A DNA stretch of 64,000 nt from Hydromonas sp. (GTDB lineage Bacteria > Pseudomonadota > Gammaproteobacteria > Burkholderiales > Burkholderiaceae), in the NCBI GenBank assembly GCA_017495165.1, contig JAFEII010000017.1, forward strand, positions 1 to 64,000, given 5' to 3'. Shown here piece by piece: positions 9,157 to 55,925 of the stretch. The notes beneath the pieces were generated by a model. The model had not been told where the DNA came from. It did not search any database and was given only the letters and a program-made list of their open reading frames with translations. The translations under genes were made by a program, and so were the position numbers. Numbering within the stretch: position 1 is the first letter of the stretch; each line of letters begins with the position of its first letter.

Positions 9157-10591
<1,435 letters not shown>

Positions 10592-27244: not shown

Positions 27245-27556
27245 GTTGTTGCTCCTGTCTTTATTGATTTTGGGTTTGCGTGGTTTATGTTGATTTTGAA
27301 ATTTCAGTAATTTCTGAAATTAATGGTGAGATTTTACGTCAGTTTTTTAAAACGTGTTTTTTTTGGTAAAAAATGGCAAAAACTGGTGGGTGTTGGGAGG
27401 TTTTTGGAAGTGTTGCGGGGAGCTGGAGCAGCTGCGCCGCTGGCGTTGAAGCACTAAAACACTCAGGGATGGCTTAAAATAAGCGCTGGCTTGAGTTCAG
27501 AGAAACGTAATCACAACGAAGTGGGCTTTAAATTCGCCATTTGTTGTGCAAAGGTC
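27245..27556. other. Non-coding spacer upstream of the regulator-cydAB operon
   Basis: This 312-bp spacer contains the predicted operator at 27300-27321 and an insertion-element remnant at its right end. No gene is evident between them. Confidence 0.6.
27300..27321. promoter_or_regulatory. Predicted operator of the GbsR-type regulator
   Basis: AATTTCAG and CTGAAATT form 8-bp perfect arms with a 6-bp AT spacer, 56 bp before the regulator start codon. Size and placement suit a dimeric winged-helix autoregulator. Confidence 0.5.
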
Positions 27557-27558
27557 TC
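27490..27558 (-). mobile_element. Insertion-element remnant abutting the TonB-like gene
   Basis: On the minus strand, GAGACCTTTGCACAAC begins at 27558 and overlaps the stop codon of the TonB-like gene. It continues through CAAATGGCG and a TTGTGATT segment resembling the left part of the copies at 31636 and 51884. Only one end is recognisable. Confidence 0.5.
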
Positions 27559-31635: not shown

Positions 31636-31800
31636 GAGGCCTTTGCGCCACAAAGTAAGCCCCTATTTTGTGGCGATTCGATAAAAATTTTTTGGGAAAT
31701 CCGAACAAATTTTAGGCAAAAAAATGAATAATCTGCAGTCACCGTAATTTTTCAGTCTCCAAAAATAGAGGCGGTTGAATTGGTTGGTTATGTGTTTAGT
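31636..31800 (+). mobile_element. MITE copy A (degenerate)
   Basis: The left end GAGGCCTTTGCGC and the right part (CCAAAAATAGAGGCGGTTG to GGTTGGTTATG) match the copy at 51884-52052 over about 165 bp. An internal hairpin is kept at 31684-31713. The extreme right end is decayed. No coding capacity. Confidence 0.75.
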
Positions 31801-49844: not shown

Positions 49845-50465
49845 TTAAAACGACACGCTCGCAGGGCTAATGGCTTGGGTTTGGCTAAACGTAATCACGC
49901 TTTGGTCACCGTTGGTCTCGCTGATGCGCACGGACTGAATATAACGCGCGCCGCTTACTTGGATTTGCATAATGGTTTGCTTCATATTCGGGCTACTTGG
50001 GATCAAAGTCAGACTCCATGCGCCTTTGCTTTGCGCGCTGCCTGTAATATTAAAATACTGTTGCAGCACGCCAAAGTTACCCGTCAAAACGCTTGAAAAA
50101 ATGGTGTTGACGGTTTTCGTACTCGAACCATTGCCAATACTGGTGTTGGTGCCACCGCGATTTTCGACCATGCCGTTGGGCGTGATTTTGAGCGTGGACG
50201 CGCTGGGGCTTTCGGTAATCCACAGCATGCCTTTGTTGTTCACCGCAACCAATTTACCCGTTGAAACCATGCTGGTGCGAAAGCCGCGAATCTGTTTGAC
50301 CTGTCTAAACTGCGCTTGCAAGCCTTCTGGGCGACTCAGGCTGCTCGATACGGTTTGTAATAATTGTTGCGTGCTTTGGGCGTAACTGCTGGGCGCGGCT
50401 GCGCACAAGGCCAGCGCTGCGATGGATGCCAATAATTTACGGTACGTTTTAAATGCAATACTCAT
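49845..50465 (-). CDS. LolA-like outer membrane lipoprotein carrier protein (APE cluster)
   Basis: A 206-residue protein with a signal peptide (LLASIAALALCAAAPSSYA). The LQAQFRQVKQIRGFRTSM and GMLWITESPSASTLKI segments match the LolA fold, used to carry lipophilic cargo across the periplasm. In APE clusters it likely ferries the polyene lipid. The ATG at 50465 gives a normal signal peptide; an in-frame extension to 50585 would overlap the thioesterase gene. Confidence 0.85.
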   Translation of the reverse strand: MSIAFKTYRKLLASIAALALCAAAPSSYAQSTQQLLQTVSSSLSRPEGLQAQFRQVKQIRGFRTSMVSTGKLVAVNNKGMLWITESPSASTLKITPNGMVENRGGTNTSIGNGSSTKTVNTIFSSVLTGNFGVLQQYFNITGSAQSKGAWSLTLIPSSPNMKQTIMQIQVSGARYIQSVRISETNGDQSVITFSQTQAISPASVSF

Positions 50466-50484
50466 GGCGGATAACTTTCTTTGG

Positions 50485-50940
50485 TTAAATTGTAATGTCT
50501 TGATTTTGAATGCACGCATTGATTTTTTGCAGCAGCACGTCTGGGGATTGATAACACATTTCAAAATTACGAATGGCCACCGCAACTTGCGTGGTGTACG
50601 CCCGATGCAGCACGCGCATGGTTTGTGCGTCTTTGATTTCGTAGTTGATTTTTAAACGATTTTCCCACTCGGTAATCGCGCAGGCCACAATCACGGGTTG
50701 CGCGTACGCAATCGGGCGAATGTATTTAAGGCGCATGTCCACAATAGGCCACGCGTAGCCAGAGGCTTGCATTTGTGGGTAATCATAATCAATGGTTTGC
50801 AACAGTGCGCACCGTGCAACTTCTAAGTATTTGACGTAATTGCCATGCCAAACAATATTCATCGGGTCAAGGTCGTGAAACTGCGGCTGAATCACAGTTT
50901 CTGTGTAGGCAGGAAATTGAGATAAGTTCTTAAGCTTCAT
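50485..50940 (-). CDS. Hotdog-fold acyl-CoA/ACP thioesterase (APE cluster)
   Basis: A 151-residue 4HBT-type thioesterase. QFHDLDPMNIVWHGNYVKYLEVAR holds the catalytic Asp and the following helix. It may release or edit acyl-ACP or acyl-CoA intermediates in polyene synthesis. Its ATG overlaps the stop of the acyltransferase gene (ATGA), so the two are co-translated. Confidence 0.88.
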   Translation of the reverse strand: MKLKNLSQFPAYTETVIQPQFHDLDPMNIVWHGNYVKYLEVARCALLQTIDYDYPQMQASGYAWPIVDMRLKYIRPIAYAQPVIVACAITEWENRLKINYEIKDAQTMRVLHRAYTTQVAVAIRNFEMCYQSPDVLLQKINACIQNQDITI

Positions 50941-51863
50941 TTGTACGCCCGCCAAAAATCGAAAAAATTAAACCATTCCAAAGGGTGTTTGTGGCACGCC
51001 TGCGCCAAGCGGTGCGCGTATTGTTGCGCGTAACCTTGCAATGCGGCGGCGCGATTTTGGCGCGGCAGCTCGATTTTGTCGGCCAATACCTCGTATTCCA
51101 CCGTGTAACCAAGTGCGCTTTTGCAGCAAAACATCAACAAAATGGGACAATTAAACATAAACGCCAGCAAATATCCCCCAGTTGGAAAATACGCGGTTTG
51201 CCCCAAAAAATCACACGGCACCGCGTGTTTGCCGTCATCTGGCACTGGCACTCTATCGCCCGCCACCGCAATAATTTCGCCATTTGCCACTTTTTCGGAC
51301 AGCTTAATAGATAGCGCTGGGTCAAACTGCGAGGTTTCAATTAAATTGAAAGTGGTGTTTGGATTGAGTTTTTTTAAAATCGCCATAAATGATTGGCTAT
51401 TTTTGGTGTGCGTGAGGACATTTAGCGGGCGATTGCTTAATTTGGCAATCGTGCGCGCCACTTCTGCTGTGCCAAGATGTGATGTGAGTATCAAAAAGCC
51501 TTGTTTTTTGTCGAGCAATTGCGTGGCCAACTCACGGTTGTAAATAGCAGCCACAGGCGCTTTAAAGTCAGGTGTATTGGCCAATAGTTTGTCCAACAAA
51601 CCATCTGCAAAATGCACAAAATGGCGAAAAGACGTGCGCAGATTTGGCTTTACAACGCTGCCACTGAGCTGCATGCGCTGCAAATACGCGAGCGAAGCGC
51701 GCCGAGCACTGGCGCTGGTTATAAAATAAAAACCCACCACGGGGTACAGAAATAACTTAAATGGCCATGCGCCCAGTAAGCGGTACACATGCAGCAGCAA
51801 TAAAATGCCGCTGGCAAATGTTTTTTCTCCGATGGTGGCCCAATGGCGAGTTGGCTGGCGCAT
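50937..51863 (-). CDS. LpxL/HtrB-like lysophospholipid acyltransferase (APE cluster)
   Basis: A 308-residue inner-membrane protein. HLGTAEVARTIAK matches the H-x4-[DE] active-site region of the LpxL family, and AVAGDRVPVPDDGKHAVPCDFLGQTAYFPTG is typical of this APE-associated branch. It likely attaches an acyl or polyene chain to a lipid anchor. In several APE clusters this domain is fused to a family 2 glycosyltransferase; here the glycosyltransferase is a separate gene at 52932-53693. The start at 51863 has GGAA upstream and lies 21 bp from a MITE end. Confidence 0.85.
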   Translation of the reverse strand: MRQPTRHWATIGEKTFASGILLLLHVYRLLGAWPFKLFLYPVVGFYFITSASARRASLAYLQRMQLSGSVVKPNLRTSFRHFVHFADGLLDKLLANTPDFKAPVAAIYNRELATQLLDKKQGFLILTSHLGTAEVARTIAKLSNRPLNVLTHTKNSQSFMAILKKLNPNTTFNLIETSQFDPALSIKLSEKVANGEIIAVAGDRVPVPDDGKHAVPCDFLGQTAYFPTGGYLLAFMFNCPILLMFCCKSALGYTVEYEVLADKIELPRQNRAAALQGYAQQYAHRLAQACHKHPLEWFNFFDFWRAYK

Positions 51864-51883
51864 AACGTTCCATTTGTTTAAGT

Positions 51884-52052
51884 GAGGCCTTTGCACAACA
51901 AATTAAAAACCTACTTTATTGTGACTCGACAAAACTTGTTGGGGAAGCCCGAACAAGTTTTGGATAAAAAGCATGAAAAAATCCCAATTGCCCGTCATTT
52001 TGCAGCTTCCAAAAATAGAGGCAGTTGAATTGGCTGGTTATGCAAAGTCCTC
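51884..52052. mobile_element. MITE copy B, complete with terminal repeats
   Basis: The element is 169 bp. The left end GAGGCCTTTGCACAAC and the inverted right end GAGGACTTTGCATAAC match at 14 of 16 bases. TAAGTGAG occurs at both borders (51879-51886 and 52053-52060), consistent with target-site duplication of 5 to 8 bp. An internal hairpin (51931-51961) has arms AAAACTTGTT and AACAAGTTTT plus an inner GGG/CCC. There is no transposase gene, so it would need one in trans. Confidence 0.8.
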
Positions 52053-52158
52053 TAAGTGAGATTACTCGCGGCGAGCGCGAGCGGTTGGCATTATAACCTA
52101 CTGAAGGCTTTATTTACAGTTGGTTCGCGTCTGTGCACTTGTTTGGTGCGCGCGGGTT

Positions 52159-52182
52159 GGGCTTGGTGAATCAAGCCCCTAT
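52159..52182. repeat. REP element, GGGCTTGG type
   Basis: GGGCTTGGTGAATCAAGCCC plus CTAT is an imperfect palindrome like that at 47318-47341. Confidence 0.6.
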
Positions 52183-52245
52183 GGTTGAATGTATCGGTTG
52201 AGTTTAACGGTTTGCGTTAAATTTTTATTGGTTCTGCGCTCAAAT

Positions 52246-52275
52246 AAAAAGCCTTCCATTCATGGAAGGCTTTTT
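52246..52275 (-). terminator. Terminator of the OmpA-like gene
   Basis: AAAAAGCCTTCCAT with its complement (2-nt loop) is followed by a T run, 22 bp past the stop codon. Confidence 0.9.
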
Positions 52276-52296
52276 GGTGTAACCAATACAAACAAG

Positions 52297-52836
52297 TTAC
52301 TTTTGCAAAACCACCTCAACGCGGCGCGCTTGCGCATCGTTACCCGTGCCTTGTGCAGATTCTGGTTTTTTCATTTCAATCAAGTCTTGGTTGATGCCCA
52401 AGGCAAGCAAGCTGTTGTACACCGATTCAGCGCGTTGTTTAGACAGCGCTTCATTGGTTTTAAGGTCGCCCGTTGAGTCATGGTAGCCAGAAATCGTGGC
52501 TTTTTTGCCCGCTTTAAGCCCAGCAATCACGTCTTTTAAAGCATCGTTTGCATTGCCCGCCAAATCAGCTTTGCCGCTGGCAAAGTAAAATTTCACCACG
52601 CCGTCTTCAACCACAACGCTCGCTTGTGCGTCAGAAATTACGGCCGTTTTATTGGTGTGTGCGGCGTCAGCGTTTGTGGCGCTCGTTGCGTGTGCTTTGG
52701 TGTCCGTTGTGCTTGAACCACTGTTCATGCCCCAATAAATACAAAAACCAACAATCGTGCTGATGATGAAACCAACAATAATGCCCACAATGCCCAAGGC
52801 AAAGCGTTGTTCGTCGTCTTGATGTTCTGTTGTCAT
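52297..52836 (-). CDS. OmpA-family peptidoglycan-binding membrane protein
   Basis: A 179-residue protein with one N-terminal membrane helix (FALGIVGIIVGFIISTIVGF), a Thr/Ala-rich linker, and an OmpA C-terminal domain (VVKFYFASGKADL, GYHDSTGD and LSKQRAESVYNSLLALGI). It should be anchored in the inner membrane and bind peptidoglycan in the periplasm. It has its own -10 element and terminator and is not a known APE gene, yet it sits between two APE genes. Confidence 0.88.
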   Translation of the reverse strand: MTTEHQDDEQRFALGIVGIIVGFIISTIVGFCIYWGMNSGSSTTDTKAHATSATNADAAHTNKTAVISDAQASVVVEDGVVKFYFASGKADLAGNANDALKDVIAGLKAGKKATISGYHDSTGDLKTNEALSKQRAESVYNSLLALGINQDLIEMKKPESAQGTGNDAQARRVEVVLQK

Positions 52837-52873
52837 GCTATTTTCTCCAATAGGGGTTAAAAAAACTGGGCAA

Positions 52874-52879
52874 ATTATA
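52874..52879 (-). promoter_or_regulatory. -10 element of the OmpA-like gene
   Basis: A perfect TATAAT on the minus strand (in CACGTATAAT) lies 38 bp before the start codon. No good -35 is present, so strength is uncertain. Confidence 0.5.
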
Positions 52880-52931
52880 CGTGAGTTTGGGGCAAAAAAC
52901 TCATATTCAACGTGATTAAACGCTGCATGAT

Positions 52932-53693
52932 TTAGTCATCAAATTTTGGTTTGTCAGAAAAGAAACGGCGCAATAACTTGGGCAGGCGCGGCAACATGCC
53001 AAAAAACAACCGCGTGTGCATGAGACTGATATACACATTGTCACGCACCGATAAAAAATGCGACACGCCATCGGCGGGGTAATGAACTTGCGTGGGCACA
53101 TTGATCATTGACACACCCGCCCAGTCCGCGCGCACAAGCAATTCGGTTTCAAAACTCATGCGCGGGTACATGTTGTAACGCTCGATTATCGGCAACAATG
53201 GCGCGAGCGGGTACACGCGAAAGCCACACATCGAGTCTTTAATCCGCAACGACACCGTGTTAATCCATACCCAAACGTGGGTCAAATACCGTGCGTATAA
53301 ACGGTGTTTGGGCACGGTTGCATCATAAATCGGGCAACCGCAAATAATATCGGCAGGATGTGCCTGAGCCAAACGGATAAAATTCGCAATATCGCCCAGC
53401 GCGTGTTGTCCATCTGCATCGACTTGCAGCACATGTGTAAAACCAAGCGACGCGGCAGTGCGAAAACCTGTTTGAATACCTGCGCCTTTGCCTTGATTGT
53501 GCGCATGCGCCACCAGTTGCACGCGGGCTTGCACCAAACTTTGTAACACCTCAGAACACGCCGCATCACTGCCGTCATTGATTAAAATAATCGGTAAATC
53601 TGTGGTGCTTAAAATAAACGCCACCGTCTGCCCAATGGTTGCGCCGTGGTTAAACACAGGAATAATAATCGCGGGGTTAAATGAAATCGTCAT
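52932..53693 (-). CDS. Family 2 glycosyltransferase (APE cluster)
   Basis: A 253-residue GT-A glycosyltransferase. It has IIIPVFNHGATIG, ILINDGSD (substrate Asp), VLQVDADGQH (DxD-type metal site), and a C-terminal SFETELLVRADWAGV like dolichyl-phosphate mannose synthases. It may glycosylate the polyene or its lipid carrier. The ATG overlaps the upstream ligase stop (ATGA). Homologues in several APE clusters carry the acyltransferase on the same chain. Confidence 0.88.
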   Translation of the reverse strand: MTISFNPAIIIPVFNHGATIGQTVAFILSTTDLPIILINDGSDAACSEVLQSLVQARVQLVAHAHNQGKGAGIQTGFRTAASLGFTHVLQVDADGQHALGDIANFIRLAQAHPADIICGCPIYDATVPKHRLYARYLTHVWVWINTVSLRIKDSMCGFRVYPLAPLLPIIERYNMYPRMSFETELLVRADWAGVSMINVPTQVHYPADGVSHFLSVRDNVYISLMHTRLFFGMLPRLPKLLRRFFSDKPKFDD

Positions 53694-55381
53694 GCGTCGC
53701 TCCAAATCAGCGTGCCAGAAGCGTGTGTGCCTAAATCAGAGGTGTAGCTAAAATCCACTTTTTGATTGTTTAATGTGAGCTGCAATCTGACTTGCGCGGC
53801 AGGCGAAATAATCTTTTTGAACTTGAGTTTTTTAAGTTCAATCGTAAGTGGTGCATCGGGCAGTTGCGCGCCAAAAAAAAGCTGGCTGTAGCGTTGCGCC
53901 CACTCAATTTGCACCACACCCGGTAAAATCGCTTGCTCCGCAAAATGTCCTTGGAAATATTGCAAATCAACGGGAATGACAAGGTCTAATTGCGCGCATG
54001 CCTCGTCAATTATTTGGCTGACAATCTGCGGCAAGGTACAGATTTCAGGCGCATTTAATAACTGCAATAGCGTTTTTTGTTCCAGCTTGCCTTGGCTGTT
54101 TAGCGGCATCTGAGCCACAAAACGCCAGCGTTTGGGAATGGCAATGCGCTCGATGGTGTTTTTGAGCGGCAGTTTGAATTCATCGATCAATGCACGCCGC
54201 CCTATGCTTGCCAAACGTGTTGCACCAGCCGCATTTAAACACAACACCGCGCCCAGCGTGGTCCGTGCAGACTCAAGCACCGTAATCTGCGCATCGTCAA
54301 TCAACTCATGGTTTTGCAGCAAGGCTTCAATCTGCGTGAGCGAAATGCGCTTTTCTTCAATTTTGACCAAGCGGTCTGTGCGCCCGCGTAACGCAAACTT
54401 GCCACACGAATCAATGCGCGCCAAATCAGAGGTAATAAACATCGGCTCATCGACATCTAAGTAATCACTGCGCACGCACAGTTGTTGCGCCTCATCGACT
54501 GAAACCTGCACTGTGGGCAACGGCGCAAACAGCACATCAGCTTGTCGATACGCCACCGCACCTGTTTCGGTACTGCCATAAATTTCAATCGGCGCGCAAT
54601 CCCATAATGCACCAATCTGCGCGCTATCCGCTGTTTTCAAAATCCCACCTGCAGAAAAGACAACCTGCGGGCGCGGCAAATCTGACCAATCAGAATCGGC
54701 ACTGGCGCGGCTTAAAAACGCAGGGCTGCTAATCAATGTGTATGGCGCATGCGGCAACGCAAGCAGGTTTTCTGGGTAGTTGAGCAAGCGGTTAGAAATG
54801 GCGCATCGTCCAATGAGTGGCAGCAACAATCGAAAAATAAAGCCATAAAAATGCTGGTGCGAGACGCTCGCATAGACGGGATGTGTGGCGAGTTGTGCGC
54901 CAAACTGTTGTTGCAAAACCTGCACTTCCGTTAATAACTGCCGCATGGTTTTAGCAATCGGGCACGGTTTACCCGTTGAACCAGACGTAAAGAAAAACGT
55001 GCGCACCGTGGGGGCAATATGCTGCGCTGTCAACGTGGGCGCGCACAGTTGAATGTCCGCCGCAGACAATTGACTCAGCGCAAAATCGCCCGCAAACGCC
55101 ACGTCGTATTCGTGTAATGACGCAACGGTTGCGGGCAAGGCATCACTGGGCAAATAAACATGTTTGCCCGCTTGCCAGGCGCCCAACAATGCCGCCAAAA
55201 ATACGCCCGTATCCAAGCAATACAATGCCCAAGTCGCCTCAGGGCGCGCGGCAAACGCCATGCGCCATGCCTCGATGGACAGGCGCAACTCATGCCACGT
55301 CACATCGCGCTCGGGGTTGGTCAGCGCAACGCGGGTGCCGCTTTGGTTTAAGAGATGATTGAATGATTCAAGGGTGTGCAT
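53690..55381 (-). CDS. Fused AMP-dependent acyl-ACP/CoA ligase and hotdog dehydratase (APE cluster)
   Basis: A 563-residue two-domain protein. Residues 1-440 form an adenylating enzyme with the P-loop FFFTSGSTGKPCPIAKT, EIYGSTETGAVAYR, and SDLARIDSCGKFALRGRTDRLVKI. Residues ~445-563 form a FabA/FabZ-like dehydratase with LQYFQGHFAEQAILPGVVQIEW, including the active-site His. The ligase probably loads the aromatic starter acid onto an ACP; the dehydratase removes water during chain extension. These two activities are usually separate genes (ApeH, ApeI) in described APE clusters. The start overlaps the upstream gene by 14 nt. Confidence 0.88.
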   Translation of the reverse strand: MHTLESFNHLLNQSGTRVALTNPERDVTWHELRLSIEAWRMAFAARPEATWALYCLDTGVFLAALLGAWQAGKHVYLPSDALPATVASLHEYDVAFAGDFALSQLSAADIQLCAPTLTAQHIAPTVRTFFFTSGSTGKPCPIAKTMRQLLTEVQVLQQQFGAQLATHPVYASVSHQHFYGFIFRLLLPLIGRCAISNRLLNYPENLLALPHAPYTLISSPAFLSRASADSDWSDLPRPQVVFSAGGILKTADSAQIGALWDCAPIEIYGSTETGAVAYRQADVLFAPLPTVQVSVDEAQQLCVRSDYLDVDEPMFITSDLARIDSCGKFALRGRTDRLVKIEEKRISLTQIEALLQNHELIDDAQITVLESARTTLGAVLCLNAAGATRLASIGRRALIDEFKLPLKNTIERIAIPKRWRFVAQMPLNSQGKLEQKTLLQLLNAPEICTLPQIVSQIIDEACAQLDLVIPVDLQYFQGHFAEQAILPGVVQIEWAQRYSQLFFGAQLPDAPLTIELKKLKFKKIISPAAQVRLQLTLNNQKVDFSYTSDLGTHASGTLIWSDA

Positions 55382-55925
55382 GAGTACGACGATGGTATTG
55401 GCGGTAAAGCCATTCAGCCGCAAACAAGGCGGCAGTTAATAAATAAGCAATCAAGCCGTTGTACAACGCCCAAATTTGCGCGTCGCCGTACAGCGTCGTG
55501 GCAATTGCCAGTGCGCCATTGACGATAAAAAAGCCGCACCACAAAATAGTTACTTTGCGGGTATATGCAACCGCGTGCGGTGGTATATTAGGTTCGGTCA
55601 GTCGCGCCAGCCGCTCAATGGCAGTTTGCGGCGTAGCCAAACTTCGGGCAAAAAATACCAAAAAAATCAAATTTACAATCGCGGGATACCACAGTAATAA
55701 TGCGTCGTTATTGGAAGTGTACGTCACCAACACCAACAGCGCGCCGCCCGCCAGCCACCATCGCCCAACCGGCGTTTGAAAACCCAGTAAATAGGCGCGA
55801 ATAAAAATCACGCCAAACAATACCAGACTCATTTGCATGGGCGAATAATATTGCCGCCCAAAATACAGGGCAAACGGATATGCCGCTGTGATAACCGCAA
55901 GTATGACTTTGAGCAACGACTTCAC
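55368..55925 (-). CDS. APE cluster integral membrane protein (COG4648-like)
   Basis: A 185-residue protein with about six hydrophobic helices. WWLAGGALLVLVTYTSNN, LLLWYPAIVNLIFLVFFARSL and KVTILWCGFFIVNGALA match the unknown membrane protein found between the ACP and ligase genes of APE clusters. It has no enzymatic motif; a role in membrane handling of intermediates is inferred only from position. Confidence 0.8.
   Translation of the reverse strand: MKSLLKVILAVITAAYPFALYFGRQYYSPMQMSLVLFGVIFIRAYLLGFQTPVGRWWLAGGALLVLVTYTSNNDALLLWYPAIVNLIFLVFFARSLATPQTAIERLARLTEPNIPPHAVAYTRKVTILWCGFFIVNGALAIATTLYGDAQIWALYNGLIAYLLTAALFAAEWLYRQYHRRTHAHP

Follow-up and report, generated by a model that had tools for sequence, protein, structure and literature searches.

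The window, by which we mean the whole analysed stretch of 64,000 nucleotides, carries at 51884-52052 a 169-bp element whose ends are GAGGCCTTTGCACAAC and, inverted, GAGGACTTTGCATAAC, terminal inverted repeats of about 16 bp (Table 1). These ends, an internal hairpin and a nearby acyltransferase start had been named in the original prediction and are all present in the sequence, the ATG of the PF03279 gene (51863, minus strand) lying 20 bp from the element. The genes at 49845-55423 surrounding it read as LolA-like, thioesterase, Lip_A_acyltrans, OmpA, glycosyltransferase and AMP-binding with an ApeI-like domain, an ensemble that we take to resemble an aryl polyene type cluster.

Table 1. Features of the window, and genes flanking copies of the double-hairpin module in the genomes analysed.
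Feature or flanking genes	Position, or locus (genome)	Strand	Basis
Composite MITE, 169 bp	51884..52052	+	sequence and genome copies
Target duplication TAAGT (5 bp), left copy	51879..51883	.	
Target duplication TAAGT (5 bp), right copy	52053..52057	.	
Left terminal inverted repeat; inner 6 bases double as outer arm of hairpin 1	51884..51899	+	
Right terminal inverted repeat	52037..52052	-	
Hairpin 1 of the double-hairpin module; family form 12 pairs, loop AAAACC; imperfect here	51894..51923	+	
Hairpin 2 of the module, the stem named in the original prediction	51930..51962	+	
Third hairpin, weak; no pair changed on both sides in 15 copies	52003..52024	+	
Copy A, degraded second copy without right end; 2 broken pairs in hairpin 2	31636..31792	+	
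MITE fragment, left end and degenerate hairpin 1; extent set by eye	27510..27558	-	
End-like sequence, isolated	9264..9284	.	
Acyltransferase gene (PF03279), MITE in its upstream region	50937..51863	-	
iscS/iscU	L193 (G217), L099 (G026, element in opposite orientation)		Pfam
iscU	L142 (G364)		Pfam
iscS	L245 (G000)		Pfam
atpD/atpC	L156 (G320)		Pfam
atpC	L139 (G283)		Pfam
ATP synthase alpha/beta gene	L175 (G004)		Pfam
rpsG/fusA	L075 (G001)		Pfam
rpoB/rpoC	L158 (G004)		Pfam
Thiolase/3HCDH	L159 (G004)		Pfam
sdhA/sdhB	L166 (G004)		Pfam
rpoA	L160 (G004)		Pfam
Aconitase large and small domains, leuC/leuD type	L130 (G244)		Pfam
fabH/fabD	L101 (G026)		Pfam
groEL	L152 (G038)		Pfam
fusA end	L084 (G005)		Pfam
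pheT	L071 (G005)		Pfam
iscS-iscU	L188 (G334), L098 (G083)		flank sequence alone
atpD-atpC	L140 (G200)		flank sequence alone
groEL	L136 (G320)		flank sequence alone
rpsG-fusA	L093 (G004)		flank sequence alone
rpoB-rpoC	L097 (G002)		flank sequence alone
fabD	L102 (G083)		flank sequence alone

A non-autonomous MITE-like element and the probable origin of its ends

When the whole genome (G000, 2.12 Mb in 36 contigs) was searched, 27 places matched the element, 16 of them over more than 100 bp. Among the 14 copies with both ends readable (L008, L009, L011, L014 and L016 have no readable end and were omitted), nine are flanked by an exact 5-bp duplication, compared with 0 of 182 exact matches when flanks were swapped as a control; the remaining copies agree at four of five bases in one case, at three of five in two, and at none in two. 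The border repeat had been put at 8 bp, and this length has to be corrected: the duplicated target is TAAGT, and the GAG extending it on the right side is present in just three of the nine duplicated copies (L001, L005 and L035). Three short derivatives, of 97 bp (L035), 62 bp (L022) and 67 bp (L026), keep related ends and exact 5-bp duplications, which indicates that the mobile unit is defined by its ends. The element is a non-coding, non-autonomous, MITE-like insertion present in many copies.

For a parent element with the same ends, also envisaged in the original prediction, a broken candidate lies in a relative (G001); none was found in the genome itself, where the profile DDE_Tnp_1 (PF01609), the one searched, had no match at E 0.001. 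The relative's element (L061, 1501-2712) is 1,212 bp long and ends in GAGACCTTTGCACAAC and, inverted, GAGACTTCTGTACAAC. Its transposase is frame-broken; two pieces match PF05598 and PF01609 above their cut-offs, and score 67 and 98 bits against NF033581 (IS5_4), below the cut-off of 140. Together, the ends and the transposase matches of this element suggest an IS5-type origin for the ends of the MITE. The likeness to the IS5 family lies in these common ends; the MITE differs in its 5-bp duplication and in carrying the double-hairpin module described below. IS5 subgroups are known for target duplications of lengths other than 5 bp, and no target duplication was seen at the 1,212-bp element. The same relative also holds a 292-bp element (L063 1501-1792, contig C9) with perfect 16-bp ends, GAGACCTCTGCACAAC, akin to the left part of the 1,212-bp element; no 5-bp duplication was seen there.

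A double-hairpin module with covarying arms

With copies aligned in one orientation, a first hairpin stands directly behind the left MITE end, and the stem noted originally follows it as hairpin 2. In the copies from relatives, hairpin 1 has the core AAAGTA-loop-TACTTT with variable outer arms, and hairpin 2 a GG-loop-CC core, likewise with variable arms. The pair of hairpins is also found without MITE ends, in the genome itself, elsewhere in its genus, in a sister genus and in five more families of the same order. One such copy of the genome itself (L245) lies upstream of a gene reading as iscU. Among 24 module copies of relatives, the left end occurs near one (L069, at most two mismatches) and is absent from 23, and a right-end-like string was seen near another (L083). 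It follows that the structure does not belong to the MITE exclusively.

A covariance model built from 20 copies (R1) matched six of six genomes of the genus at E 0.1, with 2-37 matches each, antisense echoes included, and nine of 150 genomes of the family, all within two genera. A model of 50 copies (R2) picked up 22 of the 399 genomes scanned in the order (E 0.01), the genome itself included. Its matches in G382, G498, G362 and G304 look like ordinary hairpins or like nothing, and were rejected as modules; without these four and the genome itself, 17 positive genomes are left, in families f3, f8, f20, f23 and f38. A third model (R3) matched two of 41 genomes of the order and one of 274 of the class, the genome itself; scans of more than 40 genomes score few candidates, and such match counts do not show absence elsewhere. 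The module measures about 75-100 bp and is dispersed, mostly beside genes, with one tandem occurrence (L189); copies with a listed GC content reach at most 62 percent. Loops, inner pairs and a tail after hairpin 2 are conserved across families, tail columns reaching 97% A and 95% C, which argues for a recognised structure.

Three side observations concern occurrence. The metagenome-assembled genome JAIRPA01 (Cf509_bin15) has 15 copies in 29.6 kb, amid other repeats (L118, L121, L125, L126); these four loci were picked for holding a copy, and without the four copies so chosen the density is 11 copies, or about one per 2.7 kb. The double-hairpin pattern also occurs in two IMG/VR viral contigs (L228 and L229). 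A plasmid search with one query returned a single 21-base match in Phaeobacter, at E 0.9.

The arms of both hairpins change sequence while their pairing is kept. In a MAFFT alignment of 20 copies (A1), 94.4% of 519 cells are paired, against 78.9% after shuffling, with covariation scores of 0.419 and 0.116. Fifty copies fitted to the model, and hence leaning towards it (A3), gave 94.8% of 1,297 cells against 70.1%, and 0.588 against 0.139, with slid versions at 0.119 or less. For 40 copies picked by hand and aligned by MAFFT (A6; four from Cf509, the remaining 36 from 14 genomes in other families), the values were 96.0% of 1,040 cells against 76.7%, and 0.512 against 0.146, with slid versions at 0.094 or less. 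On each of five measures, all three alignments surpassed every one of 500 shuffles, and they surpassed the slid versions too; the shuffle counts ignore the relatedness of copies and are not probabilities.

Within the genome itself, 15 MITE copies (A7, omitting L016) scored 0.186 against 0.113 and had changes on both sides in 25 cells, where shuffles gave 8.4; none of 500 shuffles reached either value. Two further measures were unexceptional: the nine pairs changed on both sides were equalled in 27 of the 500 shuffles, and the number of pair types in 130. All nine pairs fall in hairpins 1 and 2; the terminal repeats and the third hairpin have no such pair. The covariation test on genome copies proposed in the original prediction is thus positive for its hairpin, and likewise for the second one beside the left end, which it had missed.

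The particular change on which that prediction was founded does not hold. A compensatory replacement of C-G by T-A had been read in copy A; the C-G pair at 51935/51957 corresponds there to A.A (31687/31709), and a second mismatch, T.C at 31690/31706, stands for G-C at 51938/51954. Across the 15 copies the first of these pairs is UA in seven, AU in four, CG in three and otherwise in one. Selection on structure and not on ends alone, as had been proposed, thus draws its support from pairing kept through change of both arms in other copies; as the hairpins also occur outside MITE ends, it would concern the module, and template switching is an alternative cause of the same pattern.

Placement of the module, and possible constraint on DNA or RNA

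According to a crude gene call, 107 distinct copies of the module divide into 26 sense and 29 antisense copies in spacers between co-directional genes, 10 between divergent and 10 between convergent genes, and 32 without a clear class. Thirty flanking proteins, chosen by eye and not as a random sample, were scanned, and gene names were read from Pfam families (Table 1). Five of the 29 antisense copies sit in rRNA operons; these five, all antisense to the rRNA, belong to four genomes of family f8 (G204, G353, G439 and G467) and occupy tRNA-Ile/tRNA-Ala or tRNA-23S spacers (L132, L133, L134, L137), with two in one spacer in G467.

Such placement bears on whether the pairing matters in RNA. Stem-loops in polycistronic transcripts could stabilise mRNA or guide its processing, and selection on RNA pairing would give covariation. 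In line with this, copies lie in the spacers of iscS-iscU, atpD-atpC, rpoB-rpoC, sdhA-sdhB and rpsG-fusA, as well as in those of rRNA operons, and the element folds better as RNA than its shuffles (z -3.3). Orientation is mixed, with 26 copies sense and 29 antisense to co-directional neighbours, and at iscS-iscU it varies between genera, both of which speak against a role in RNA.

The mismatches within the stems offer a further criterion, on the premise that selection on one RNA strand leaves G-U in excess of A.C on that strand. The counts of G-T and A.C are 14 and 11 in A1, 31 and 30 in A3, 20 and 16 in A6, and 55 and 47 in a 66-row alignment (A4), from which six matches, antisense echoes or large inserts, were left out. 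By context, G-U and A.C number 19 and 16 in sense copies, 12 and 20 in antisense copies, 3 and 5 between divergent genes, 7 and 7 between convergent genes, and 38 and 21 in the group of ambiguous context. Read along the direction in which co-directional neighbours run, G-U stands at 39 and A.C at 28, a lean towards RNA and not a result. The near balance overall contrasts with the control of 24 tRNA acceptor stems, with nine G-U and no A.C, and favours a constraint on DNA or on both strands. We consider it more likely that the constraint acts on DNA, or equally on both strands, or that template switching recopies the arms; a role in RNA as the cause of the covariation seems unlikely, if worth keeping in view.

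Template switching during DNA replication can keep arms matched (PMC8794818, as far as the available part of that paper goes) by copying one arm onto the other, with no selection on pairing. Many double changes could not have passed through a single G-T pair (200 of 272 in A3 and 96 of 183 in A6), as this process would have it, and in one subfamily (L008, L012, L015) neighbouring pairs and the loop have changed together, GGGTTTCCC standing for GGGAAACCC. Against it, the third hairpin and the terminal repeats lack double changes, with the proviso that they are weaker or far apart, and template switching alone fails to explain the conservation of loops, inner pairs and tail across families. As the whole explanation, we find it improbable. 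A reading of hairpin 2 as a bidirectional transcription terminator within the MITE is very improbable: its GC core is flanked by an A run and a T run, but a terminator scan lists no site in 51600-52400 (a weak test, which misses a terminator-like hairpin at about 52246-52275), and copies lie inside operons and rRNA operons, with just 10 of 107 between convergent genes.

Proposed capture of a REP-like repeat

Among published repeats, the nearest is the beta-proteobacterial repeat element (BRE; Hot et al. 2011, PMC3110155), which measures about 90 bp (75-91) and is scattered over Betaproteobacteria, mainly between genes. The available text of that paper calls its function unknown and reports up to 29 copies, sometimes in tandem, with 63.7-78.9 percent GC for Bordetella BRE. 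The likeness, judged by description and not by comparison of sequences, extends to size, betaproteobacterial dispersal, intergenic and tandem occurrence and copy number, whereas the GC content of Bordetella BRE exceeds the 62 percent or less of module copies from other genomes; structure and covariation, which the module has, and capture by a MITE, which is proposed for it, are not described in that text (PMC3110155).

REP and REPIN sequences, as portrayed in the parts of PMC3733652, PMC3116915 and PMC8266576 available, resemble the module as short dispersed palindromes in spacers, in both orientations, some of them co-transcribed. In contrast, the module has two different hairpins in fixed order, and inspection of the alignments by eye showed the base of the stem to lack both the GTAG and the CGTC tag; on the opposite strand, GTAG falls, again by eye, inside hairpin 1, paired with arm and loop. 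Against Rfam 15, no family scored above its gathering threshold (weak overlaps below it were Flavo-1, E 0.58, and Thr_leader, E 0.084), and six core strings of hairpin 1 had no occurrence in the literature text searched.

Y1_Tnp matches occur in six of six genomes of the genus. A link of the module to RAYT was not borne out by the loci examined: within 1.5 kb of 34 Y1 or RAYT loci there was no R2 match at E 0.1 and no mobilising factor for the module was found, nor did R1 match in 11 such loci. The Y1 protein of G004 was matched in 26 of 27 genomes with the module and in 23 of 39 others, 49 of 66 in all; this association ignores kinship, and the protein is also present in 15 of 18 module-negative genomes of the family to which G000 belongs. 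As a separate observation, a single Y1_Tnp-like protein of about 220 amino acids is encoded in the genome itself (contig C29, 95582-96226) and in relatives (L198-L206). It is kept in all nine examined genomes of the two genera that have the module and in 40 of 57 others, and its gene adjoins an apparent prmC in at least four genomes of the genus.

We favour a composite origin, to which we give a probability of roughly 0.6: a MITE moved by an IS5-type transposase has captured a double-hairpin module, perhaps a REP-like repeat tolerated or kept in spacers. The composite anatomy itself is well supported. The MITE would have been moved in trans by a transposase apparently no longer encoded in its own genome, and upon capture the inner bases of its left end would have become the outer arm of hairpin 1. 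We hold at a little under even odds that the module is one of the REP-like dispersed repeats and that some factor responsible for spreading or copying it recognises it in the form of a folded DNA strand or a cruciform. The module would be tolerated or kept in transcribed intergenic spacers, where its hairpins would form in mRNA too and, leaving transcription to continue, might tune how the message is processed or how stable it is.

Several observations sit less easily with the composite origin, namely the absence of module copies around the Y1 or RAYT loci, which yielded no mobilising factor, the 1,212-bp element without target duplication, the disregard of relatedness in the shuffles, the two measures on which the MITE copies were unexceptional, the capacity of template switching to match arms without selection, and the lean towards RNA of 39 G-U to 28 A.C.

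Taken further, and decidedly tentatively, the module may represent a dispersed bacterial repeat of a class of its own, separate from the GTAG- and CGTC-tagged REPs, that is recognised as folded DNA by some factor, has been placed or retained repeatedly in core-operon spacers across the order, and can be taken up and spread anew by a MITE of IS5 type, the end of which turns into one arm of a hairpin.

The element would provide an example of a MITE picking up a structured repeat, and the layout of the module makes it findable across the order by a covariance model. Should BRE prove to be the module, BRE may gain an anatomy of two hairpins in fixed layout with conserved loops and tail. The near balance of G-T and A.C and the recurrence in operon spacers make it testable what spreads such repeats without a linked transposase and whether hairpins placed in spacers tune the output of operons.
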